NCBI RefSeq assembly: GCF_014696105.1
Contig: NZ_JACJPO010000066.1
Coordinates: 62,001-126,000, forward strand
DNA length: 64,000 nt
DNA from: Microcoleus sp. FACHB-1515
Lineage (GTDB): Bacteria; Cyanobacteriota; Cyanobacteriia; Elainellales; Elainellaceae
Reading direction: 5' to 3'
Shown one piece after another: positions 23,347-27,220 of this stretch. Under the pieces are notes generated by a model. The model had not been told where the DNA came from, did not search any database, and worked only from the letters and a program-made list of their open reading frames with translations. How positions within the stretch are numbered: position 1 is the first letter of the stretch; each line of letters starts with the position of its first letter. A program made the translations under genes and the position numbers.

Positions 23347-24594
23347 ATGGCGCAAGTTGTTCTCGAAAACGTTTACAAAAGCTTTAGTCGATCGACTCAG
23401 CGCGAGGTCAAGCAAACGGCCAACGCTGCCGCCCTACCAATTGATCGATCCCTGACCGAGACCGATTCTGCCACCACTGTCAGCGTGTTGCGGCGGATCA
23501 ATCTCACGGTTGACGACGGCGAATTTATGGTGCTGGTGGGGCCATCTGGCTGCGGCAAAAGTACGCTGCTGCGCTTGATTGCCGGACTCGAAGCGATCAC
23601 GGGCGGCAACATTTGGGTGGGCGATCGACTCGTCAACGATCTACCCCCAAAGCAGCGCGACATCGCAATGGTGTTTCAAAGCTACGCGCTCTATCCGCAT
23701 CTGAGCGTTTACAACAATCTCGCCTTTGGGCTACGCCGGACTGGAGAAGATGTTAACTGGCGCGATCGCCTGCTGGTTGGCCTGACGCGCCCGCTCCCCA
23801 AAGGTCTGCGCTATCTTTCTGCGCCGGAAAAAGCGATCGCCCAGCGCGTCAACACGGTCGCCCAAATGCTGCAAATTGAGCCGCTGCTCGATCGACTGCC
23901 CAAGCAGCTATCCGGCGGCCAAAAGCAGCGCGTCGCCCTCGGTCGGGCAATGGCTCGCAATCCGCAGGTGTTTCTGATGGATGAGCCGCTGTCGAATCTG
24001 GATGCCAAACTGCGAACGGAAACTCGCGCCCAAATCGTCAACCTCCAGCGCAAACTCGGCACGACGACGATCTACGTCACGCACGACCAGACCGAAGCGA
24101 TGACGATGGGCGATCGCATTGCGGTGATGAATCAAGGCGTCATCCAGCAAATTGCGCGTCCGCTAGAGCTTTATCACGCTCCGGCCAACCGCTTTGTCGC
24201 GGAATTTATCGGGTCGCCGCCGATGAACTTTTTGCCCGTGCAGGTGAAAGCCCCCTTACTGATTTCGCATCCGCAGTTTCGCATGACGCTTCCCGACAGT
24301 TGGACAAACGCGCTGCGACTGTATGATGGTCGATCGCTCACTCTGGGCATCCGCCCCGAACACTTCAGCATCAGCGTCCCCGCCCCGAAAAATCTACCCG
24401 TCACGGTCGATCGCGTCGAAGCCTTGGGCAGCGAAACCTATATTACCGTCCGCCTCGATGACCGATCGGAGTTGCAGGCTAGAATCGAACCGGATCGATC
24501 GATTTTTGTCGGTGAAAAGCTGTGGCTGTCGATCGCGCCCGAAAAAATTCACCTGTTCGATTCAGACAGCGGCGCAGCCATCCGATTCAGCTAA
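23347..24594 (+). CDS. ugpC: ABC transporter ATP-binding protein, MalK/UgpC family
   Basis: 415 residues. Walker A GPSGCGKST, Q-loop FQSYALYPH, signature LSGGQKQR, Walker B VFLMDEPLS and the H-loop THDQTEAM are all intact. A MOBE/TOBE-type regulatory region follows (LGIRPEHFSI). It energises import of a sugar, polyol or glycerol phosphate and may serve several permeases. Two insertions lengthen it: about 30 residues after the first strand and about 40 after the Q-loop (around PLPKGLRYLSAPEK). A damaged duplicate of its last 170 bases lies at 27051-27220. Confidence 0.92.
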   Translation: MAQVVLENVYKSFSRSTQREVKQTANAAALPIDRSLTETDSATTVSVLRRINLTVDDGEFMVLVGPSGCGKSTLLRLIAGLEAITGGNIWVGDRLVNDLPPKQRDIAMVFQSYALYPHLSVYNNLAFGLRRTGEDVNWRDRLLVGLTRPLPKGLRYLSAPEKAIAQRVNTVAQMLQIEPLLDRLPKQLSGGQKQRVALGRAMARNPQVFLMDEPLSNLDAKLRTETRAQIVNLQRKLGTTTIYVTHDQTEAMTMGDRIAVMNQGVIQQIARPLELYHAPANRFVAEFIGSPPMNFLPVQVKAPLLISHPQFRMTLPDSWTNALRLYDGRSLTLGIRPEHFSISVPAPKNLPVTVDRVEALGSETYITVRLDDRSELQARIEPDRSIFVGEKLWLSIAPEKIHLFDSDSGAAIRFS

Positions 24595-24640
24595 GCGGCA
24601 CTAGAGGAGCGATCGAGGGTGGATCGATCGCCCCACTGGT

Positions 24641-24919
24641 CTACTGGAATCGCAAATAGCGCACCAGCAAGCTAATCACGTCACCCGGATCGGGCACGAT
24701 GTTGAGCGGCGCATCGAGTTCCAGCGGTTGCGCCCATTCGATCGCCTGTGCGTATCCGGCCTGCTCTAGCCGCCTCGTCGTGAACTGCACAATCTGCGGT
24801 GTGCCAATCAGAATGTGCTTGATTGGGGTGCGATTGTCGCCCGGAATTTTGGGGATTGACTGAATTTGCGGCGTGGGCAAATCGTTCCGCTCTGAGGCGG
24901 AATTATCAGAAGTATTCAT
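24641..24919 (-). CDS. Hypothetical protein, 92 residues
   Basis: A short hydrophilic N-terminus (MNTSDNSASERND) is followed by a more conserved-looking region: IKHILIGTPQIVQFTTRRLEQ and NIVPDPGDVISLLVRYL. I recall similar small proteins in cyanobacteria but know no function. The ATG at 24919 has AGGA at the right distance. It converges on the ATPase gene. Confidence 0.65.
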   Translation of the reverse strand: MNTSDNSASERNDLPTPQIQSIPKIPGDNRTPIKHILIGTPQIVQFTTRRLEQAGYAQAIEWAQPLELDAPLNIVPDPGDVISLLVRYLRFQ

Positions 24920-24984
24920 GAGTTTTCCTGTGTTGTGTTGGGTAGGAAAACCCAAAAGCCTAGCCGCCCCGACGCAAGACAAAG

Positions 24985-25150
24985 CAATCGAGACGGCTAG
25001 GAGGGTATGATCCCAGTTAGCCTATCAACTGCCCGATTCAGTTTGGTGGGTCAGCGGCCTGAAGTCTGTTGGAACCAGCTTCGGGTCGCGTGGCTAGACC
25101 TTGGGTTACAGTTTCCTGTGGTCTAACAATCGATCGATGCTGTGATTGAG
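24985..25150 (+). ncRNA. Candidate structured small RNA (6S-like rod)
   Basis: A TATGAT box at 25006-25011 predicts a start near 25017. From there GTTAGCC (25016-25022) pairs with GG-CTAAC (25120-25127), AACTG (25027-25031) with CAGTT (25109-25113), and CCC with GGG. After a large asymmetric bubble, GGTC-AGC (25049-25055) pairs with GCT-A-GACC (25093-25100), and GGCCTGAAG (25056-25064) with CTTCGGGTC (25079-25087). Two pairs in the last helix are G-U on the plus strand and would be A-C on the minus strand, which favours a plus-strand RNA. A rod with a central bubble, and GGGTTACAG in the 3' strand as in E. coli 6S RNA, suggest 6S RNA. An ATGCTG/CAGCAT hairpin follows (25137-25156). Not confirmed by homology. 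Confidence 0.45.
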
Positions 25151-25278
25151 CAGCATTAGCAAGCAACACTAACGGAATTATTCGGCAAAGTCAAGCAGTT
25201 TTTTTAACCATCCAGCAACCCCGCACCTGCCGCGATCGAGAACATACGTATAAATCACGGAAAATAGACGGAACTTTG

Positions 25279-25395
25279 CTGTGTAACACCCTGTAGCAGG
25301 GCGATTATACAGATTACTCGCTGTTCAACTGCCTCGATCGGGTGATTCGGCAGCGAGCAGTCTGCATAACTCCCCGTAACGGGTGATTAGGCAGA
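25279..25395. repeat. Three tandem palindromic repeats
   Basis: Units at 25279-25312, 25319-25355 and 25361-25395 share one plan: an outer stem (CTGT/ACAG, CGCTG/CAGCG, TCTGC/GCAGA), then AAC-N-CCC, a small loop, GGG-Y-GATT, and the closing arm. Spacing is about 40 bases. They lie directly upstream of the GNAT gene and its cassette-like border. Confidence 0.65.
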
Positions 25396-25416
25396 TTGGA
25401 TCTCTAGAATAAATTG

Positions 25417-25999
25417 TTATACGGAATTCTTTCATAAAGAGATGGAGTGAATTTGTGAGAATCAAACTCCGCACAGCAGGTTTGGATGACCTTACCTCCA
25501 TCTATGCGATTCGTCGAGATTCCATTCTTGGAGTTCCATCTGAGGCTAGTTTAAGTGATCGTCAGGCTTGGGCAGACAAGCGATCACCTAATTACTACCA
25601 AGATCGCATTACTGCTGCTCATGTCGTTATTGCCAGTTTTGAAGAAGACAATATCGGTTGGGGGAGTAGTTCCGACGATTGTATTACTGGACTATACGTT
25701 TGCTCATCATGGTGTCGCAGAGGTATTGGTCGTATAATTATGGACAGTCTTGAAATGGAAATCTTGAGACGTGGGTATACGTGCGCGAGACTAGGATCGA
25801 GTCCGGATGCTGTCGGCTTCTACACTAAGCTCGGTTATGAATCAGTTGGATTTCCGGATGAAGATAGAGCAGTTCCAATGAAGAAACATCTTAGAATAAC
25901 TGATTCTAAATCTATGGCTGTATAACAACCCTGTTGCAACGGGCAGTTTGAGAATCTTGGTTACAGTTCAAGGTTGTCTGCCGCCGTTGAACAGGGTTG
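25417..25999 (+). mobile_element. Integron gene-cassette-like element carrying a GNAT gene
   Basis: Both borders fit integron cassette rules. The left border is GTTATAC (25416-25422). The right side is a folded attC-like site ending GTTAGAG (25999-26005). Joining G25999 to TTATAC gives GTTATAC, the exact reverse complement of GTATAAC (25920-25926) at the start of the attC-like site, as expected for an excised circle. The single gene fills the element, its stop codon lies in the inverse core, and there are no GCGATCGC octamers inside. No integrase gene is in the window. Confidence 0.5.
25455..25925 (+). CDS. GNAT family N-acetyltransferase
   Basis: 156 residues with one GNAT domain: IRLRTAGLDD-like start, TGLYVCSSWCRRGIGRIIMDSLE (acetyl-CoA binding RRGIG loop), and the closing FYTKLGYESVG. 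The substrate cannot be read from the sequence. GTG start with GGAG seven bases upstream. Base composition is more AT-rich than its neighbours, and the gene sits between cassette-like borders, both signs of transfer. Confidence 0.85.
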   Translation: MRIKLRTAGLDDLTSIYAIRRDSILGVPSEASLSDRQAWADKRSPNYYQDRITAAHVVIASFEEDNIGWGSSSDDCITGLYVCSSWCRRGIGRIIMDSLEMEILRRGYTCARLGSSPDAVGFYTKLGYESVGFPDEDRAVPMKKHLRITDSKSMAV

Positions 26000-26005
26000 T
26001 TAGAG
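25920..26005. repeat. attC-like recombination site / long hairpin
   Basis: Whole-site hairpin of 86 bases. TAACAACCCTGTT (25923-25935) pairs perfectly with 25990-26002. After one unpaired G (25936), CAACGG pairs with CCGTTG. After a two-base bulge on the other arm, GCAG pairs with CTGC. AATCTTG pairs with CAAGGTT at the tip. The ends read GTATAAC and GTTAGAG, close to the RYYYAAC/GTTRRRY cores; the unpaired G resembles an extrahelical base. The two spacers are fully complementary, which is unusual for attC. Confidence 0.5.
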
Positions 26006-26257
26006 CCTCATGTGTTCACGAAAGTTCTGTCTTGGTGTATGAATCTTCAAGTCCGATCGCAAGTCGAAAGCAATCAGAATAGCGGCGATCGACATTGGCA
26101 CTGATTAGAAATGGATAATTTCGATCGTAGAACGCGATCGCTGAAAGCTTGCATCTTCTCGGAAGTGAACAAGATTTAATCTTCAGTTCAATCAGGCCAC
26201 AAAAACTTAACATGGCTCATACTGAAGGTTAAACCTCTTTGAGTATGGGAGCCTTTT
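26006..26257. other. Spacer before the toxin-antitoxin pair, with operator-like palindrome
   Basis: No supported gene; a 65-codon minus-strand frame (26016-26213) has no recognisable motif. Just before the antitoxin start, CATACT (26218-26223) and AGTATG (26242-26247) form an inverted repeat enclosing a second one, AGGTT-A-AACCT (26226-26236). This is a good candidate for the autoregulatory operator of the downstream pair. Confidence 0.45.
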
Positions 26258-26488
26258 ATGTTGTCCCAAGAACTGAAAGCGCAAATCTTCAAACTGTCTC
26301 CCAGCGATCGCCTCGCACTCATTACGATTATCGTTGAATCCCTACAAGAAACAACGGTTGCCCAGCCTGACCGCTCTGGCGCAATTCGACGCATGAGGGG
26401 TCTATTAAAAACAGAGCAACCTGCACCAACTGATGAAGAAGTGGCAGCAATGTTGGAAGAGCGGCGATTGGAGAAATATCTCCAGTGA
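26258..26488 (+). CDS. Antitoxin of a PIN-domain toxin-antitoxin pair
   Basis: 76 residues: MLSQELKAQIFKLSPSDRLALITIIVESLQ, a helical start seen in cyanobacterial antitoxins, then a charged helix (TDEEVAAMLEERRLEKYL) likely to wrap the toxin. GGGAG lies six bases upstream of the ATG. The stop overlaps the toxin start by four bases (GTGA), so the two are coupled. Confidence 0.8.
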   Translation: MLSQELKAQIFKLSPSDRLALITIIVESLQETTVAQPDRSGAIRRMRGLLKTEQPAPTDEEVAAMLEERRLEKYLQ

Positions 26489-26913
26489 GAACTTTAATTG
26501 ATACTAATATCGTCCTAGATTTCCTGTTACAGCGAGAGCCATTTTTTCAAGATGCAGAACTGTTGTTTCAAGCGATCGATGAGGGGGAGATTACTGGATA
26601 TGTTACAGCAACAACACTGACGGATATTTTCTACATCTCACGCAGACATACTCGCAGCATTGAACAAGCACGGCAAGCAGTCTCGGAAACACTGACCGCT
26701 ATGGTGATTTGCCCGGTTGATCGAGCTGTTTTGGAATTAGCCTTTGACTCCGGTCTGCCTGATTTTGAAGATGCTGTTCAGATCTCTAGTGCAGTTGCTC
26801 AAGGCTTAGAAGCGATCGTGACTCGCGATGCTCAAGGTTTTTCAAGTTCGTCTATCCCTGTTTTATCGATTCAGGATTTGTTGCGGCAGGTCAGACAGCA
26901 AACTAGTGGCTAA
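26485..26913 (+). CDS. PIN-domain toxin (VapC-like ribonuclease)
   Basis: 142 residues. The acidic active site of a PIN nuclease is present: Asp in LIDTNIVLDFLL, an acidic residue in ATTLTDIFYI, and the aspartates of LPDFEDAVQISSA and IVTRDAQGF. It would cut RNA when not held by the antitoxin encoded just upstream. The GTG start overlaps the antitoxin stop. Confidence 0.85.
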   Translation: MRTLIDTNIVLDFLLQREPFFQDAELLFQAIDEGEITGYVTATTLTDIFYISRRHTRSIEQARQAVSETLTAMVICPVDRAVLELAFDSGLPDFEDAVQISSAVAQGLEAIVTRDAQGFSSSSIPVLSIQDLLRQVRQQTSG

Positions 26914-27050: not shown

Positions 27051-27220
27051 TGCAGTGAAACCTATATTACCGTCCGCCTCGACGAGCGAACGGAATTGCA
27101 GACCAAAATCGAACCGGATCGATTTCAGTGGGTAAAAAGCTGTGGCTGTCGATCGCGCCCGAAAAAATTCACCTGTTCGATTCAGACAGCGGCGCAGCGA
27201 TTGGACGGGTCGATCGCTAA
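27051..27220 (+). pseudogene. Frameshifted 3' fragment of a MalK/UgpC-type ATPase gene
   Basis: Nearly identical to the last 170 bases of the ATPase gene at 23347-24594 (compare with about 24427-24595). The first part reads SETYITVRLDERTELQ in one frame; a four-base deletion near 27118-27135 moves the rest (LWLSIAPEKIHLFDSDSG) to another frame. It ends AAIGRVDR-stop instead of AAIRFS-stop, so it came from a paralogue or diverged after copying. Its last bases overlap the 3' end of the convergent gene. Confidence 0.85.

Follow-up and report, generated by a model that had tools for sequence, protein, structure and literature searches.

The minus strand of the window (the whole 64,000-nt stretch of DNA analysed here) carries a conserved, structured RNA of 190 nt whose 3' end falls on the ATG of a small downstream ORF. 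Judging from sequence comparisons, this leader appears to represent a new class of structured cis-regulatory RNA, and is most likely a riboswitch-like switch.

A structured leader RNA precedes the gene of a small protein

Aligned upstream stretches share the same order of elements: a promoter (-35/-10) comes first, then a small 5' hairpin followed by the conserved structure, and finally a last hairpin and the ATG. The 3' arm of this last hairpin is the Shine-Dalgarno sequence, directly before the ATG. Homologues were searched with R1, a covariance model derived from a MAFFT alignment of 30 leaders (A1) and a hand-drawn fold in which P1 closes a junction containing P2 to P5 and is followed by P6, and with R2. 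The parts of the unit in the window are as follows.

25189..25194, minus strand: -35 element TTGACT; upstream promoter pattern found in 85/108 units
25166..25171, minus strand: -10 element TAGTGT, after a 17-nt spacer from the -35 element
25137..25156, minus strand: 5' hairpin P0, ATGCTGCTCAATCACAGCAT, read from the sequence; similar hairpins seen by eye in several homologues
24917..25106, minus strand: conserved leader RNA, 190 nt; R1 189.5 bits, R2 163.2 bits
25092..25106, minus strand: closing stem P1, 5' arm; partner 24951-24965
25054..25089, minus strand: hairpin P2; 10/11 pairs change on both sides
25024..25046, minus strand: hairpin P3; CUG/CAG 100% paired
24995..25022, minus strand: hairpin P4; GGCU/AGCC base and conserved loop AUCAUA (25006-25011)
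24966..24994, minus strand: hairpin P5; 95.2% paired
24951..24965, minus strand: closing stem P1, 3' arm; contains GGCU (24962-24965), a U run and GGG
24920..24952, minus strand: hairpin P6, pairing the Shine-Dalgarno sequence; 5/5 modelled pairs change on both sides
24926..24929, minus strand: Shine-Dalgarno sequence AGGA, read from the sequence; 2% unpaired in the window
24641..24919 including the stop codon, minus strand: small orphan protein, 92 aa; recurs beyond nearly every RNA copy

The pattern TTGAC-N17..19-TAnnnT occurred at most 160 nt upstream of the RNA in those 85 units, whereas shuffled sequences gave 0.66 on average and never more than 4. TAGTGT is a poor match to the -10 consensus, and a simple scan of 24600-25460 called neither a promoter nor a terminator. 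From the position of these elements, we infer a transcription start near 25159 on the minus strand.

Inverted-repeat sites at 25285-25420 and 25923-26010 surround an ORF for a GNAT acetyltransferase (25455-25925), and include the pair TAACAACCCTGTT / AACAGGGTTGTTA with 54 nt between its halves, which we take to resemble the attC recombination site of a gene cassette. A small ORF overlapping a PIN-domain ORF (PF13470, E 1.1e-24) at 26258-26913 is arranged like a toxin-antitoxin pair. By eye, the 3' end of the ABC ATPase gene (23347-24594) recurs in diverged form at 27058-27215, so that what lies between the two may have been inserted or duplicated.

Covariation supports the multibranched fold

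In A1, which is free of bias towards the model, 17 of 51 pairs changed on both sides, with a covariation score of 0.218 versus 0.155 when shuffled. Among 81 matches, 43 of 51 pairs did so, and the score was 0.355 versus 0.194. Alignments A3, A6 and A9 were made to the model and are biased towards its structure: in A6 (27 loci from another family), 31 of 51 pairs changed on both sides (0.428 versus 0.191 shuffled), and in A9 (98 matches, built from 96 chosen sources) 45 of 51 pairs did so in 624 cells, while 89.5% of cells were paired compared to 77.4% after shuffling. The covariation score of A9 was 0.419, against 0.203 when shuffled and at most 0.102 when partners were slid. Furthermore, a structure-blind MAFFT realignment of the 98 sequences placed 10 of the top 20 covarying pairs, and 12 of the top 40, within the structure, where chance predicts 0.0032 per pair.

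The strength of this signal was not uniform along the RNA. The closing stem was well paired, as 14 of the 15 P1 pairs changed on both sides in A9 and 95.6-96.5% of cells were paired. The lower part of P3 was the weakest element; it is weakly modelled, and 61.1% of its cells were paired. This strong covariation supports both the multibranched fold and the hairpin predicted to bury the Shine-Dalgarno sequence. As expected for a riboswitch, the leader thus contains a conserved covarying structure in a 5' position. The first-pass annotation, which had proposed a structured RNA in this part of the window, had held that a lack of covariation among homologues would speak against it; the covariation proved strong.

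The leader recurs in many cyanobacterial genomes

A DNA search of the window's own genome found the sequence at 13 places, and close copies are also present in related genomes. With R1, the leader recurs about 20 times in this genome (21 matches, 20 of them listed). R1 matches were found in 28 of the 36 genomes of the window's cyanobacterial family (251 matches summed) and in 9 of the 40 genomes of another cyanobacterial family; R2 matches occurred in 33 of the 39 genomes of a further cyanobacterial family (422 summed, up to 62 per genome), it being understood that all these per-genome counts may contain weak mirror-image matches. Among 386 evenly drawn cyanobacterial genomes, with six candidates scored in each, at least 13 carry the RNA. 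Comparison of 16 other homologous loci with Rfam returned only real tRNA and chance matches in place of a known leader family, and no relatives of the RNA/protein unit were matched in the viral collections.

The leader is closely paired with one family of small proteins

The proteins encoded downstream share the kernel LIGSPxxVxxTIxxLxxLGYAExxxWSxxL...GxVMSxLxR. An ATG-initiated ORF of at least 40 aa was found at or near the RNA end for 78 of 83 matches, family membership being judged by eye for such RNA-end counts and by profile for the genome-wide protein counts. The five exceptions include L116, which encodes the same family from a TTG start, and the weak matches L080 and L127 (21-23 bits, no ORF), both omitted from A3. 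In the second cyanobacterial family, 25 of 27 RNA matches were followed by an ATG ORF, and one of the remaining two starts with GTG. In the window's genome, 19 of the 20 listed RNAs are followed, at a distance of -4 to 171 nt, by a match to the protein. The exception, on contig C24 (G000:C24; L173, 395-1199), precedes an unrelated ORF of 203 codons for which no family was accepted. For 18 additional RNA matches without a listed protein, the small ORF lies at the RNA end in 10; the other 8 show no recognisable small ORF, some of them being at contig ends.

The pairing also holds when the search starts from the protein. A protein-only search yielded 28 cyanobacterial loci, 26 with the RNA directly upstream, and one of the two others is cut by a contig edge. 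Among 40 loci fetched mostly as protein without a listed RNA, 25 contained an RNA match at E<=2.2e-7. Of the 36 genomes of the window's family, the 28 RNA carriers all have the protein as well, 5 have the protein only and 3 have neither. Homologues of the small protein are also encoded by 13 plasmid records, nearly all from Nostocales, and none of the 8 plasmid loci examined carries the leader RNA, indicating that the protein family extends beyond the RNA. In three of these plasmid homologues from Nostocales (L231, L229 and L234), tyrosine recombinase/integrase genes lie within 3 kb. Four homologues lacking the leader RNA (L232, L233, L235 and L236) have, as judged by eye, another kind of hairpin, rich in GC, immediately ahead of the Shine-Dalgarno sequence, which is perhaps a further regulatory leader. 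In one genome (G030), the protein was matched about 70 times, and in many of these cases a stop interrupts the match to the profile.

The small protein resembles no family that we searched. The protein of the window had no match in Pfam or NCBIfam, no family was found in PHROGs or among PDB sequences, and an alignment of 64 of the 76 distinct proteins (A4) gave only isolated chance matches to known protein families. PADLOC returned nothing over 42 members of A8. Structure models of two members predict a small beta-alpha-beta core, with a pLDDT above 90 in the second; Foldseek, at E<=0.001, matched these models to nothing in the PDB, and VIA-align gave no hit with Z>=5. A fold match to DUF1737 in the viral library (E 0.13) is a lead only. 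A conserved leader peptide was considered as well and dropped by eye.

The near one-to-one association of a single RNA with a single protein family is what would be expected if the small protein, or another protein, bound the leader and repressed its own family, the RNA then being a protein operator instead of a metabolite aptamer. The type of core predicted by the models also occurs in nucleic-acid-binding domains, a likeness not accompanied by any significant fold match. However, some protein homologues lack the RNA, one copy of the RNA stands before an unrelated ORF, and most operator hairpins are smaller and less branched than the conserved core of the leader. We therefore regard autogenous control as unlikely, although it is the alternative to a riboswitch-like switch that best withstands the evidence.

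Paralogous units form a dispersed family

The units stand alone: a same-strand ORF of at least 90 aa lies within 120 bp in only 6 of 100 units, and an operon partner for the small gene was rejected on this count. In three genomes, paralogous units have about 485-540 bp in common, and the homology breaks off abruptly at its ends; a fourth genome shows longer, more variable blocks. In the three, the common stretch begins at about the -35 element and stops shortly after the ORF, a pattern that fits a dispersed gene family.

Abrupt ends in several genomes, together with up to 62 RNA and about 70 protein matches per genome, could also be read as the traces of a small mobile unit made of promoter, RNA and ORF, in which the structure would serve spread and not gene control. 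We find this improbable, as the common stretch is confined to the region from about -35 to just past the ORF, as in a gene family under selection, no common ends were seen beyond it, and the viral collections held no match. Furthermore, Shine-Dalgarno pairing and the promoter are conserved, as control of the gene predicts.

The leader is predicted to switch between two exclusive states

Each of the three segments of the P1 3' arm (GGCU, U run and GGG) has a second possible partner. The GGCU is at least 90% conserved, and its partners in P1 are C or U, about half each. P5 can be extended by pairing AGCC with GGCU (24995-24998 with 24962-24965), producing a terminator-like stem followed by the U run, and these alternative pairs can form in 93.6% of cells. 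When the P1+P4 and extended P5 conformations were each forced on 81 sequences, their energies lay a median of 2.2 kcal/mol apart (-81.1 versus -81.2 in the window); like the conservation of GGCU, this near-equality is a computed result that may have other causes. The mean unpaired probability of the Shine-Dalgarno sequence was 0.19, compared to 0.33 with shuffled leaders in which it was kept. The U run after the extended P5 is only 4-5 long, and the whole resembles an intrinsic terminator, although the scan calls none. The conserved GGCU, its alternative pairing, the near-equal energies and the burial of the Shine-Dalgarno sequence together suggest two states.

We propose that the minus-strand promoter, of sigma-70 type, would produce a message made of a folded leader of ~190 nt and one small protein, the leader consisting of two parts, P1-P5 as a multi-branched domain and an expression platform. 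State A would have P1 and P4 formed, with P1 occupying the U run and the GGG beside the Shine-Dalgarno hairpin. State B would instead have AGCC from P4 paired with GGCU from P1, thereby extending P5 into a GC-rich stem followed by the U run and allowing P6 its full length. State B would be OFF, because transcription stops early, the ribosome site is blocked, or both, and state A would be ON. A signal from the cell would set the balance between them, most probably in the form of a small molecule or ion bound in the conserved junction. As the switch is repeated before most paralogues, one signal would govern the whole family.

The position of the RNA, its covariation, its strand and its promoter all favor a cis-regulatory leader, while the copy that precedes an unrelated ORF and the proteins that lack the RNA count against a switch. 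On balance, we consider it probable that a riboswitch-like, two-state leader controls the small-protein family in cis. A bolder version is that the leader is a new riboswitch class sensing a signal new to RNA sensing, such that one metabolite doses a battery of small proteins in filamentous cyanobacteria; this is possible, and we hold it only tentatively.

Since P6 buries the Shine-Dalgarno sequence and covaries at all five of its modelled pairs, the leader might instead act as an RNA thermometer or another purely physical sensor. Such a sensor would need the hairpin alone, whereas conservation here reaches other helices too, as well as unpaired bases (91-100% identity), which makes this explanation, too, a poor candidate beside a two-state riboswitch-like leader.

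The RNA is assigned to the minus strand and is not 6S RNA

The first-pass annotation had placed at 24985-25156 a rod-shaped RNA of the plus strand, identified from its plan as 6S RNA or, failing that, as a new small RNA. The strong structure itself was confirmed, as folding surpassed shuffled sequences on either strand: -68.8 kcal/mol on the plus strand (z -3.45, 2 of 200 shuffles equally good) and -57.8 kcal/mol on the minus strand (z -3.42, 0 of 200). Both strands thus fold unusually well, and single-sequence folding cannot decide between them. The homologues do: over 81 of them, 370 G-U versus 182 A-C cells were counted on the minus strand and the reverse on the plus strand, which overturns the view that wobble pairs favour the latter. 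R1 scored 34-190 bits on the minus strand and 17-27 bits on the mirror image, and the -35/-10 promoter, in register with the RNA, likewise points to the minus strand. The TATGAT box noted on the plus strand is complementary to the P4 loop, the best conserved of the loops in this RNA, in which A25011, T25010, T25007 and A25006 are conserved at 96-100%. The fold is a multi-branched junction with a 15-bp closing stem and no simple rod, and the conserved element extends over 24917-25106, with promoter and 5' hairpin reaching ~25194. What stands of the earlier fallback is a new structured RNA; it lies on the opposite strand, and would be a cis-acting mRNA leader and not a free RNA.

No family reached the gathering threshold in an Rfam scan of the whole window, and a scan of 24600-25600 at E<=10 gave chance matches only, with none to 6S RNA (RF00013), which was rejected. 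The true 6S gene of this genome is on a separate contig (G000:C72:22398-22583, 87.1 bits). The leader is comparable to 6S RNA in length and in being a long paired element in one strand, but it differs in sequence and fold, and the 6S covariance model misses it. By sequence, the element is no free transcript, as it ends on the ATG of a conserved ORF. Plus-strand folding as unusual as that of the minus strand in the single sequence speaks for a plus-strand 6S or other free RNA, but wobble bias, model scores, promoter and the location of the real 6S gene are all opposed, and this reading is extremely improbable. This case is a caution that a palindrome-rich leader can be misread on the wrong strand.

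Comparison with known systems

ROSE thermometers, found upstream of small heat-shock genes, resemble the leader in holding the Shine-Dalgarno sequence in a hairpin before small genes present in multiple copies; the leader differs by its additional large conserved domain, and it has no Rfam match. The downstream-peptide and glnA motifs are much shorter than ~190 nt. These two glutamine riboswitches (RF01704 and RF01739) gave no match in 24600-25600 or in 16 homologous loci. The downstream-peptide motif is the closest described case that we encountered. In passages of PMC2864571 it is a structured leader found before cyanobacterial ORFs that are 17-100 aa long and belong to no known family, and the likeness of both motifs to our RNA is that of a leader before small cyanobacterial orphan ORFs. 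In contrast, our leader of ~190 nt is multi-branched, covers the Shine-Dalgarno sequence and accompanies, in its tens of copies, a single protein family.

We recognised no description of the leader RNA or of the small protein in the literature searched or in Rfam 15, and the passages of PMC8632094 that we considered name neither. With riboswitches as a class, the leader shares a conserved fold in a 5' position, and it would also share exclusive alternative pairings and an output through the Shine-Dalgarno sequence or a terminator. It differs in that its ligand is putative and that it is reiterated in front of tens of genes, all paralogues within one orphan family. To our knowledge, it is uncommon for a cis-regulatory RNA to stand before one gene in so many copies per genome. 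Two undescribed families, a covarying leader RNA and a set of orphan small proteins, are thus joined in one unit, and their close pairing makes both testable, as the ligand would give a clue to what the protein does, and vice versa.
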